Of a DNA stretch of 44,787 nt, positions 28,034-31,961 are shown in pieces. Below the pieces are notes generated by a model, which searched no databases, was not told the DNA's origin, and was given only the letters and a program-made list of their open reading frames with translations. Each line of letters starts with the position of its first letter. Within the stretch, counting starts at the first letter, position 1. The position numbers and the translations under genes were made by a program. The stretch comes from Candidatus Saccharimonadota bacterium (GTDB lineage: Bacteria > Patescibacteriota > Saccharimonadia > Saccharimonadales > Saccharimonadaceae): assembly GCA_017404515.1 (NCBI GenBank), contig JAFRCG010000017.1:1-44787 (forward strand), in the 5' to 3' direction.

Positions 28034-29659
28034 CTAGACATTCCTAAAGAGGAGTTTTTTGATTTTTTGGACGATAGGATCAACTTCTGGCAAATTGAGG
28101 AAATATCCAGCAATGATATAAGCTACAAAACTAGCAAAAGAAATCACGAGGAACTTTGGCAAAGTAGCGAGAATGGATACATCGCTAGAGCGTAATGGCA
28201 AGAACTTGGTCATGGAATAACAAACTGCTCCGGCGATAATGGTAGCAAGCAGCATCTTGGCAGAAGCTTTCCAGAAATTTTTGTTAAGTAGCTTTTTGCG
28301 GCTGGCGCGCTGAAGCAAAGCTATCAAAATGACGATTTCTAGCAAAGCGCCAATAGATTGAGCATAGCCTAAGCCCTCTGGACCAAAACCGGCCATCGTG
28401 AAAAACACTGCTAGGAGCGTAGAAAGACCGACCGCAACAATACTAACAATAAATGGCGTCTTGGTATCTTGGCGGGCATAGAAGCCGCGTGAAGCGATAT
28501 GGAAGACCGAGCGTGCAAAAATAGCGATCACAAGTGTACCAAGGACGGAAGCAATCAGCAGGTCGCCGCCGTTTTTGATGAAAGAAACTACATAGCCGCG
28601 TCCAAAATAGGCAATGGCGGCAATAGGCAAGGAAATCCAAATGATAGTCCTAAGAGCAGCCCGGAAAGTAGCGTAATATTCGTCTTCTTTGCCTTCGCCA
28701 ATATCTTCGGTCATTTTAGGGAAGAAGGCAGTAGAGATAGCAACCCCAATGAGGTTGACTGGCATCTGGTGGAGCGAAGTAGCCTGCTGATATGAACGCA
28801 TAGCACCGGCACCCATGCGAGAAGACAGGTTAGTATTGACGATGGTATTAACATAGTCAATACCCTGGTCAAGAGAGCGGGCTGGGAGGAGCTTTAGGAC
28901 GCTTCTAAAGCCGTGGTTTTTCCAGTAAATTTTGAATTCATAATCCACACCTAGCCCAAAGAGGCCGATGAGCGAGATAATAACTTGCAAAATTGCACCA
29001 AAGACTACACCAATAGCTACACCCATAATGCCGCCCTCAAAGATTTGAACGCCAAAGATATTGATACCATTGGTGAAAAATACGATGCCAATTAAGATAC
29101 CAATATTGTAAACTGCTGGGGCAAGGGCATAAAATACAAAGCGTCCAACAGCTTGCTGAATGCTAGAAAGCACCGTAGCAATAGACATTAGGAATGGATT
29201 GATAGCAATCACACGCATCATGTTGATAGCCAAAATAGTGCCAGGCTCATCTAGACCTGGACCAACAATATAACGGACAAGCGGATCGGCAAAAATCATG
29301 ATGAGGATTGAGGCAATAAGCGTAGCAAGAGCCATGAGGTTGAGCACACTAGAGCTCAAGTGCCAGGCAGACTTTTTATTGCCATTAACTAAGCGCTGAT
29401 TGAATACTGGAATAAAGGAAACTGCTAGAGCGCCAGAAGTCAGAATGAAGAACATGAAATCTGGAATAGTGAAAGCAGCAGTATAGGCATCAATACCGGT
29501 TGGATAAGTGTCCAAATAATATGAGTTTAGTAAGCGATCGCGAAAAATCCCAAGCAAGGCTGAGACAAAAGTAGAACTAGCCAAGATAATAGCTGAGGCC
29601 TTGATAGAAAATCTAGCATTGGCCATAGCTACGATGGATTTAAATTTGGGAGCTTTCAT
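28034..29659 (-). CDS. murJ: Lipid II flippase MurJ (MviN)
   Basis: Flips lipid-linked peptidoglycan precursor across the membrane. The 541 aa have about 14 helices of the MOP superfamily. FVSALLGIFRDRLLNSY in helix 1 carries the central Arg-Asp-Arg, and AFTIPDF, TSLHQMPVNLIGVAISTAFFPKM and FYARQDTKTPF are MurJ signatures. The ATG at 29659 is preferred over a TTG one codon earlier; a TGCTATAAT lies 8 nt upstream of it. Immediately upstream is the unusual hairpin spacer at 29701-30029. Confidence 0.95.
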   Translation of the reverse strand: MKAPKFKSIVAMANARFSIKASAIILASSTFVSALLGIFRDRLLNSYYLDTYPTGIDAYTAAFTIPDFMFFILTSGALAVSFIPVFNQRLVNGNKKSAWHLSSSVLNLMALATLIASILIMIFADPLVRYIVGPGLDEPGTILAINMMRVIAINPFLMSIATVLSSIQQAVGRFVFYALAPAVYNIGILIGIVFFTNGINIFGVQIFEGGIMGVAIGVVFGAILQVIISLIGLFGLGVDYEFKIYWKNHGFRSVLKLLPARSLDQGIDYVNTIVNTNLSSRMGAGAMRSYQQATSLHQMPVNLIGVAISTAFFPKMTEDIGEGKEDEYYATFRAALRTIIWISLPIAAIAYFGRGYVVSFIKNGGDLLIASVLGTLVIAIFARSVFHIASRGFYARQDTKTPFIVSIVAVGLSTLLAVFFTMAGFGPEGLGYAQSIGALLEIVILIALLQRASRKKLLNKNFWKASAKMLLATIIAGAVCYSMTKFLPLRSSDVSILATLPKFLVISFASFVAYIIAGYFLNLPEVDPIVQKIKKLLFRNV

Positions 29660-29700
29660 CAATATTTATTATAGCATAAAGCGGCCAGAGAGTTAAAATT

Positions 29701-29856
29701 AGCTATAACACCAGTTTCTCGTCTTGTCGGTTTTCGTCTAAAATAATTCAAGTGGTAATCTTTGCTGTGCCCAACTAAACGGTACTCGCAAAGTATTACC
29801 ACTTGAATTATTTATAGGAAAACCTCTTTTAAAGACTCGCAACTAGTGTTATATCT
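29701..29856 (+). repeat. Structured hairpin element A (unknown family)
   Basis: A nested hairpin of 156 bp. Outer stem: 29701-29715 with 29842-29856 (13 of 15 pairs). Second stem: GGTTTTC (29729-29735) with GAAAACC (29818-29824). Third stem: a perfect 19 bp, 29741-29759 with 29795-29813. A bulged T at 29794, then a 6-bp stem CTTTGC/GCAAAG, then a 22-nt loop at 29766-29787 containing GCCC and AAACGGTACTC. The right side has CCTCTTTTAAAG at 29823-29834. The same plan recurs, inverted, in element B. I do not recognise it as RNase P RNA, SRP RNA, tmRNA or a known riboswitch. It could be a structured RNA or a DNA hairpin. Confidence 0.8.
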
Positions 29857-29876
29857 AATCTAGCAAAGGCATATTT

Positions 29877-30029
29877 CAAACACGCAATTATTGCAACTTT
29901 AAAAGAGGCTCGCCCTGTAAGTAAATAAACTAGCAATACTTTACGAGTACCGTTTGGTCGGGCGCAGTAAAGATTGCTAGTTTATTTACTTTAGGCGAGA
30001 GCCGACGAGTTGCAATAATTATGTGTTTG
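29877..30029 (-). repeat. Structured hairpin element B (unknown family, inverted relative to A)
   Basis: A 153-bp nested hairpin. Outer stem: 29877-29898 with 30008-30029 (20 of 22 pairs). Second stem: GGCTCGCC (29907-29914) with GGCGAGAGCC (29994-30003), with a 2-nt bulge. Third stem: a perfect 19 bp, 29919-29937 with 29973-29991. Bulged A at 29938, then CTTTAC/GTAAAG, and a 22-nt loop at 29945-29966. Read on the minus strand, the loop is identical to that of element A at 19 of 22 positions, and CCTCTTTTAAAG (complement of 29897-29908) and GTCGG are also shared. The 19-bp stem differs at 6 positions, each compensated. It lies 18 bp past the ftsH stop. Confidence 0.8.
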
Positions 30030-30047
30030 GAAGATGCCGAAATTAAA

Positions 30048-31961
30048 TTAATGCAACTTAGCAGCAGCTGGAAGTACAGTGCCTTCCATCAAAGGCGCAA
30101 TTTCCTCTTCTTCCAAAGTTTCATTTTCTAAGAGTGCCTGAGCAACGCGATCTAGGACCTTGGTATTAGCCTTGAGTACGGCCTCAGCACGATTGGCGGC
30201 CTCATCGGATAGCTTCTTGATTTCTTTATCGATGAGCTCCGCAGTCTTTTCTGAGTATGGTTTGCCAGTGGAAATAGTATAGTATCTAGTGTCGGCAGCT
30301 TCTGGGAAAACTAGGTTGCGAGTATCAGAACCCATGCCTTCTTCTACGATCATTTCTTTGGCTAGTTCGGCAACATTTTTGAGATCGGAAGATGCACCAG
30401 TGGTAATATCGTCATCACCAAAGATAAGTTTCTCAGCAATTCTACCACCCATGGCCCGAGCCAAGACATCTTTTAGCTCGTAGATATTCTTGTAACTGCG
30501 ATCTTCTGGAGGCAAGAACCAAGTAACGCCACCAGTGTGTCCGCGTGGGATAATGGTAATCTTGTGGACTGGGTCAGAATCTGGTAAGACATGGCCAACA
30601 ACAGCGTGTCCTGCTTCGTGATAAGCAGTGAGTTTGCGTTCAAAGTCGTTCATAACTTTGCTCTTTCTCTCTGGGCCAATAGCAACACGCTCAAAAGCCT
30701 CTGTAAGATCAGCATTGGAAATACTCTTGTGTCCAACTCTGGCGGCGGTGATGGCGGCCTCGTTGGCGATATTGGCAAGGTCTGCACCGGAAGAGCCAGC
30801 GGTCTTGGCGGCTAAGGCATCTAGTTTGACATCTTTTTCTATTGGTTTGTTTTTGAAATGAACTTTGAGAATTTCTAGACGGTCTTTTCTCTCTGGCAAA
30901 GTAACATTGACATGGCGGTCAAAGCGGCCAGGGCGAAGCAAGGCTTTGTCTAGCATATCTACACGGTTGGTAGCAGCAATCACGATGACGCCAGAATCGT
31001 TGTCAAAGCCATCCATTTCTACCAAGATTTGGTTGAGAGTCTGCTCGTCTTCTCTGCCGGCTCCACCACGAGCGTCACGCTTGTGCGCTACGGCGTCGAT
31101 TTCGTCAATAAAGATGATGGATGGGGCGTTTTTCTTGGCTTTGCTAAACAGATCACGGACGCGGGAGGCGCCGACACCAACAAACATCTCTGCAAATTCT
31201 GAACCAGAAATGGAAAAGAATGGAACATTGGCTTCGCCGGCTACAGCGCGAGCCATAAGTGTCTTGCCGGTGCCTGGATCGCCAGCGAGCAAAACTCCAC
31301 GAGGAATTTTAGCACCGAGTTTTTCGTATTTTTTAGGATTTTTGAGAAAATCAACGATTTCTGTTAAATCTTGCTTGGCAGATTCGTTGCCAGCAACATC
31401 GGCAAATTTGACTCTCTTTTTGTCTGGGCCGTAGAGTTTGGCTTTGGCTTTGCCAAAGCCCATGGACTGATTGTTCATAGATTGAGCCTGGCGCATCAAG
31501 TAGGCAAAGAGAATAATCATAGCAAGGATAGGACCAACAATCACTGCAACATCTAGGATTGTGCCCCAAATGTTTGAAGCCTCGGCGTATTCTATGACTG
31601 GATATTTTTCCTGGCATTTGGTGAGGTCTTCGCCGTTTTTGCCTTCGCATTTGTTCTGCAAACCTTGATCATAGAGCGTACCGGAAGCGTCTTTACGAGA
31701 AATTTGGGTAGGCTGGTCTTTGTCCTTTAGGGTAATTTTGAGCTCGGAGCCAGTAACGGTGATTTTTTTGATATTGCCGTTTTCGTCGTTGGCGCGAGTA
31801 ATAACATCAGAAAGTGGAACTTCCTCCATGTGGTTCTGAGGGGTGAGAAAAGCAACTAAAGCTAAACAAATTAGAACTAGAATAAACACAAAAGAGATTC
31901 TACGCGCGTTGTTACTGGCGTCTTGTTTCTTCTGTGGACTTTTATTTGTAGAATGTGGCAC
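30048..31961 (-). CDS. ftsH: ATP-dependent zinc metalloprotease FtsH
   Basis: A membrane-anchored AAA+ protease that degrades damaged membrane proteins and regulators. The 637 aa have helix 1 (about 22-40), an external domain with Cys105 and Cys116, helix 2 (about 136-156), AAA+ module with Walker A GDPGTGKT (227-234), Walker [10 protein letters not shown] and the SRH arginines, and the zinc site HEAGH (448-452). The pore motif MFVGVGAS is present. The start is GTG with AAGGAG 9 nt upstream; TATAAT lies in the 36-bp gap after pcrA. Downstream is the hairpin spacer, so the ftsH mRNA would carry element B in sense orientation. Confidence 0.97.

Follow-up and report, generated by a model that had tools for sequence, protein, structure and literature searches.

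Two palindromes between ftsH and murJ of a gut Saccharibacteria genome are probably mobile elements set within inverted copies of their target

In the window, the whole 44,787-nucleotide stretch of a Candidatus Saccharimonadota genome that we analyzed, an ftsH-like gene upstream (positions 30048 to 31961, minus strand) and a murJ-like gene downstream (28034 to 29662, minus strand) are separated by two hairpin elements, A and B, that lie in opposite orientation. Are these elements genes for a structured RNA, as their compensated stems suggested to the initial annotation, or DNA hairpins that belong to a mobile system, which it also considered? Gene names rest on motifs and homology (a HEAGH motif together with the initial annotation for ftsH, the initial annotation for murJ) rather than on a Pfam scan. 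Both elements were found where they had first been placed, with the nested plan first described, although the outer stems proved longer: judged by fold, element A (plus strand) runs from about 29698 to 29859 and element B (minus strand) from about 29868 to 30038. The only other long inverted repeat within the window lies at its far left end. Folded separately as RNA, A (z = -13.0) and B (z = -12.0) were each more stable than all of 200 shuffles.

The two elements agree in an inner block only. In A this putative mobile block (29723 to 29834, plus strand) comprises a first loop, an inner 19-bp stem, a bulged T, a 6-bp stem, an apical loop, and CCTCTTTTAAAG; in B it occupies 29897 to 30009 on the minus strand, and the two blocks have 113 columns in common at 77% identity between unrelated flanks. 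Direct comparison bore out the details first reported for this block: the 22-nt apical loops (TGTGCCCAACTAAACGGTACTC at 29766 to 29787, plus strand, in A; TGCGCCCGACCAAACGGTACTC at 29945 to 29966, minus strand, in B) are identical at 19 positions, and all seven differences in the stems (six in the 19-bp stem and one in the 6-bp stem) are compensated on the other arm. The A loop is present in relatives and forms conserved columns in alignments A2 and A3; the B loop is likewise conserved in family alignments. The outer stems, as also first noticed, have no sequence in common, yet each pairs with itself. The 5′ outer arm of A (29698 to 29716, plus strand) is complementary at 17 of 19 positions to its 3′ arm (29841 to 29859), and the 5′ outer arm of B (30010 to 30038, minus strand), which ends ~10 nt away from the stop codon of ftsH, is complementary at 25 of 29 positions to its 3′ arm (29868 to 29896).

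A and B are insertions into a formerly short gap, since the same gap is empty in close relatives. It measures 388 nt here versus 20 to 50 nt in four other genomes (G126, G311, G304, and G310), where it holds no inverted repeat and usually retains a TATAAT-like box before murJ. Both elements sit between the ftsH stop codon and this box (TGCTATAAT at 29668 to 29676, minus strand), a −10-like sequence 5′ of murJ that is kept in several relatives with an empty gap. In genome G228, the ftsH-murJ gap is occupied by an unrelated palindrome whose outer stem pairs perfectly over 24 nt.

A and B are two members of one family of palindromic insertions, here called W, from one genus of gut Saccharibacteria. 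A third copy, a half element with most of its left arm missing, was found on contig 14 of the same genome (G000; 763,366 bases in 29 contigs), and a first model detected the element in two more genomes of the genus, one of them Candidatus Saccharibacteria isolate RGIG2339 from goat gut. A model that included the outer stems (R1) was too specific; a core model built from eight copies without them (R2) was effective and detected W in 24 of 147 genomes of the genus, so that the covariance search of relatives suggested at the outset did yield further copies. Among 393 genomes drawn to represent 156 genera of the order, none from the 155 other genera matched. The family has moved among loci, and in two genomes (G241 and G244) W itself lies inside valS. 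Its wider consensus, TGYGC...GTRCTC, flanks a variable tip, a bulge (3′-side T or 5′-side GG) sits 6 bp below the tip, and the inner stem is separated from the outer one by a second internal loop, while stem sequences vary and pairing stays. Covariation persisted once 48 copies had been aligned: 87% of cells were paired, and two-sided changes occupied 324 cells versus 92 in shuffles and 71 to 83 in slid controls. A search of viral contigs with the loop pattern gave no match, and exact loop matches in Kerfeldbacteria, Phenylobacterium, Cryobacterium, and Chloroflexi lacked the hairpin and were at chance level. Our literature search found no paper on palindromic elements in Saccharibacteria.

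Palindromes are frequent in this genome beyond W. A count of inverted repeats whose arms reach 18 nt or more gave 28 sites, compared with 0 to 1 in five Markov-1 random genomes, and most were members of a few sequence families (W, a W subfamily, X, Y, and Z); overall, ~25 palindrome sites of several families were recognized. When copies of one family within one genome are compared, the inner block alone is common, while the flanks of each copy are inverted repeats of one another. Two X copies, in mnmA (contig 4) and obg (contig 7), have 70 nt in common at 99% identity between unrelated arms that pair at 24 of 25 and 23 of 23 positions, and two W copies in genome G274 have 109 nt in common at 88% between unrelated outer stems that pair with themselves at 29 of 32 and 26 of 29 positions, as A and B do. 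The outer stem is therefore a property of the site and not of the element, and outer stems differ between copies because they are made of local target sequence.

Which arm is native is clear in obg only. The empty form, an uninterrupted 48-nt GTVVYRDGKVLADL, occurs in at least 15 relatives. In six carriers, one arm consists of native (K/R)(V/I)L.AD codons and the other is an inverted copy of it, although the mirrored stretch is merely 9 to 11 nt in some of them. The native arm is the one adjoining ADL and encodes NKVLLAD in G000, RKVLLAD in G269, RILLADL in G308, RILCAD in G300, KVLIAD in G244, and ILLADL in G175. By eye, the third bases chosen for Ala and Asp (GCT GAT or GCC GAC) also appear mirrored in the other arm of the similar obg inserts of G222, G308, and G300. 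In the Obg tree, G000 pairs with the empty G126 (support 100/98), apart from G269, so the X inserts of G000 and G269 in obg are independent. In the G300 insert (L194), a conserved Leu codon is now Cys (RILCADL) and is matched by the opposite arm; possibly, template switching has here rewritten a conserved residue of the protein. In typA, the third gene with an X insert, and in mnmA, the native side was ambiguous on inspection, and both were dropped as proof of it.

For W itself, the native side is inconsistent: it seems to be the left arm at two loci (L047 and L030) and the right arm at a third (L084), so that a rule placing the native arm on a constant side, with two cases agreeing and one contradicting, was rejected. 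Spacer flips are possibly the cause. Read from the sequences, the outer arms are the same at two loci of genome G324 (L026 and L048), with the tip reversed between them, and at the ppa-glyS junction the element has opposite orientations in G126 and G332.

Taken together, we consider it probable (roughly 0.66) that A and B are short, non-autonomous mobile palindromes that resemble Rickettsia palindromic elements (RPE), and whose insertion is accompanied by inverted copying of the target. The mobile unit would be the inner hairpin block of ~110 nt. Its conserved loops suggest recognition by a protein acting in trans, probably on a hairpin or cruciform form. At insertion, ~20 to 30 nt of target from one side would be copied in inverted orientation onto the other side, and each copy would therefore end up as the tip of a long palindrome peculiar to it. 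We picture three steps. The element, in hairpin form and either single-stranded or cruciform, would be joined to a 3′ end of the target; the hairpin would then fold back, so that synthesis could start from its own 3′ end and copy 20 to 30 nt of the adjacent target strand; and resealing would leave target, element, and inverted target in a row. Afterwards, template switching during replication may keep the arms complementary and sometimes flip the spacer. Template switching is known to homogenize the arms of inverted repeats and invert their spacers (PMC8604942) and to create perfect hairpins (PMC8794818). Acting alone, it would erase internal loops and bulges; these persist, so the hairpin form must be under some selection. 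The arms could also have been made by template switching after, rather than during, insertion; the near-identical (99%) X inserts already have complete arms, in a set of mostly draft genomes, one per species, in which very recent events are not datable.

If the arms arose later by template switching, a known type of single-stranded DNA hairpin transposase (IS200/IS605 or REP/RAYT-like) might suffice to move the palindromes. The hairpin with its conserved loop and bulges fits such an enzyme, and template switching does extend and homogenize inverted repeats (PMC8604942, PMC3820800). We nevertheless regard this as unlikely. The young, 99%-identical inserts already have full, near-perfect arms, and no Y1 transposase (PF01797) was detected in the G000 genome by a search that was positive in 10 of 14 control genomes. 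Regular expressions alone identified no reverse-transcriptase motif and one Xer-like recombinase there, and these searches together revealed no mobilizing enzyme in the genome.

Less probable still is that the elements are regulatory or catalytic RNAs selected for their fold, with the copies as paralogous RNA genes, even though the conservation of the apical loop, the strong covariation around bulges and internal loops, and the very stable folds of A and B are what such RNAs would show. In a selected folded RNA, G.U pairs would be tolerated on the RNA strand and A.C mismatches would not. When the arms of 46 copies were aligned against each other with no bonus for G.U, 76 G.U and 87 A.C mismatches were counted (P = 0.43), beside 2,721 matches and 228 transversion mismatches. 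In contrast, 44 tRNAs of the same genome, scored at fixed positions of the acceptor and T stems because ARAGORN brackets mark standard pairs only, gave 38 G.U versus 3 A.C. The mismatches are thus strand-symmetric, unlike those of tRNA, and the pairing of the element stems is maintained at the DNA level. Copies also occur in both orientations and within genes, their outer stems are target sequence, and neither A nor B matched an Rfam family at the gathering score, in keeping with the initial impression of an unrecognized family; subthreshold matches were of miRNA and plastid type and were attributed to chance. The first reading came close in proposing a hairpin used by a mobile system, while its step from compensation to selection on a folded RNA is not supported. 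Its premise that compensation would not be seen in a simple duplicated repeat overlooked template switching, which makes perfect stems and compensatory changes at the DNA level (PMC8794818, PMC8604942). For RNA discovery, this serves as a warning that strong covariation is possible without RNA selection, and the count of G.U versus A.C offers a discriminator between RNA selection and DNA-level pairing.

We give very little credence to the idea that the elements enter palindromes already present at the site, for instance intrinsic terminators, in the manner of group IIC introns or some IS: 14 of 48 copies do lie between convergent genes, and empty ppa-glyS junctions hold a short terminator of their own, but the empty obg and ftsH-murJ sites contain no palindrome, which at obg excludes a pre-existing one, copies occur within coding sequence, and the arms are long and often A+T-rich. 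The remaining copies were placed in tandem (23; 10 sense and 13 antisense), between divergent genes (4), within genes (3), or in unknown contexts (4), and unlike intrinsic terminators they have no fixed orientation or position 3′ of a gene. Termination between convergent genes was accordingly rejected as a general function, since orientations are mixed and a short terminator is already present at empty junctions.

Folded, attC-like recombination sites for cassette exchange can hardly account for the elements either. Their attraction lies in the W subfamily, ~10 near-identical hairpins in G000 (contig:position C2:83, C2:6752, C5:10, C5:10548, C16:4223, C16:48032, C20:20481, C22:22474, C28:17136, and C16:43458), of which the four with an assembled 3′ side all lie directly 5′ of a FISUMP-like cassette. 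However, the repeat includes the outer stem and therefore resembles one insertion amplified with its cassette, and FISUMP motifs are absent within 1.5 kb of A, B, and almost every W copy elsewhere, so that cassette recombination was also rejected as a general function. Integron attC sites have conserved R/L core boxes at the hairpin base; the outer stem of W is not conserved between copies, and regular expressions found the single Xer-like recombinase. Several subfamily copies lie at contig ends and thus broke the assembly; the copy at C16:43458 has lost its tip.

Palindromes within coding sequence were first reported from Rickettsia and Wolbachia. To our knowledge, how they move has been unknown for ~25 years, and we know of no described mobile element whose insertion is marked by a 20- to 30-base mirror-image frame. 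Compared by description only, RPE (Ogata 2000, 2002; reviews PMC10969869, PMC2229807) and the Wolbachia palindromes are the closest known kind. As the reviews describe them, RPE are likewise palindromes of 100 to 150 bp, with several families per genome, in gaps as well as in frame within essential genes, and with no encoded transposase; here, in-frame palindromic inserts occur in obg, mnmA, typA, and valS. Unlike in the RPE so described, the inner block alone is conserved in the present elements, the 20- to 30-bp outer stem being site-specific and of target sequence, and the host belongs to a different phylum. For RPE, target duplication is listed as unknown (PMC2229807) and so is the mode of movement (PMC10969869), and we found no mention of site-specific inverted arms in these reviews (PMC10969869, PMC2229807). 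The present elements would be of this known kind, possibly with a new insertion mechanism.

Other known systems share some of these features. Bacterial MITEs (Correia, RUP, and ERIC) are likewise short, non-autonomous, multicopy, and hairpin-capable but have conserved ends and direct target duplications (PMC2229807). In contrast to their conserved terminal inverted repeats, the terminal arms here are unrelated between copies, and the target is duplicated inverted; by eye, no direct target-site duplication was seen at obg or ftsH-murJ, where an inverted copy was seen instead. REP and BIME with RAYT, relatives of IS200/IS605, resemble our elements in their hairpins with unpaired features and in paired inverted copies like A and B. 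However, REPs are 20 to 40 bp with a GTAG or CGTC tag (PMC3733652), and G000 lacks the Y1 transposase. The double-hairpin elements, or GC clusters, of mitochondria are also mobile palindromes spreading in a small genome; they differ in having short direct repeats (AG, ACT) at their ends, and no inverted target copy is described for them (PMC4478555). Hairpins made by template switching (PMC8794818, PMC8604942) show the same inverted copying of adjacent DNA, compensatory changes, and spacer inversion but have no conserved mobile spacer.

More tentatively, and with somewhat more doubt than confidence, we propose a general mode of transposition in which a small hairpin, once attached to a target end, primes synthesis back over the neighboring strand, each insertion would carry an inverted target duplication, and several unrelated families of one genus would share the route. 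If true, this would be a new transposition mode, with the target duplicated in inverted rather than direct orientation, and the inverted copy is a structural mark that points to a testable mechanism. The genus adds to Rickettsia and Wolbachia an unrelated second lineage of small-genome bacteria in which palindromes of several families have inserted many times, also into coding sequence, and in which empty sites can be compared. Among the coding targets, the ValS loop between VDE and NMGEDW (L303 to L322) carries in-frame inserts in about half of 118 genomes of the genus, many of them palindromic and from several families, and the Obg, MnmA, and TypA loops are similar; essential proteins such as these four are undergoing remodeling by palindromic inserts.

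Several smaller observations accompany these. Family Y (GGCCTTCGTCCG...CTGGGACTCCGGGATA) is common to two species of the genus, lying in gaps in G000 (C9:28733 and C24:9839) and inside valS in G338 (L306). Family Z (GATTTAGAAAAGAAA...) has three copies in G000 (C10:808, C20:14452, and C29:7794) with differing outer arms. FISUMP-like C-terminal cassettes, recognized by the motif RYPLSYV...YGF.LRC, form arrays on both strands, in units of ~219 nt whose borders are conserved (L089:4113-5860, L087:90-726, L070, and L067), and one such cassette lies at the left end of the window (about 66 to 389); judged by their sequences, the arrays look like silent cassettes for surface-protein variation. Finally, 3′ of ppa in G126 (L213), the 3′ side of the hairpin is partly repeated behind it in direct orientation (GACGTGA...ATTCAGTTTTCGCTATATTACT), perhaps a nested or decayed insertion.
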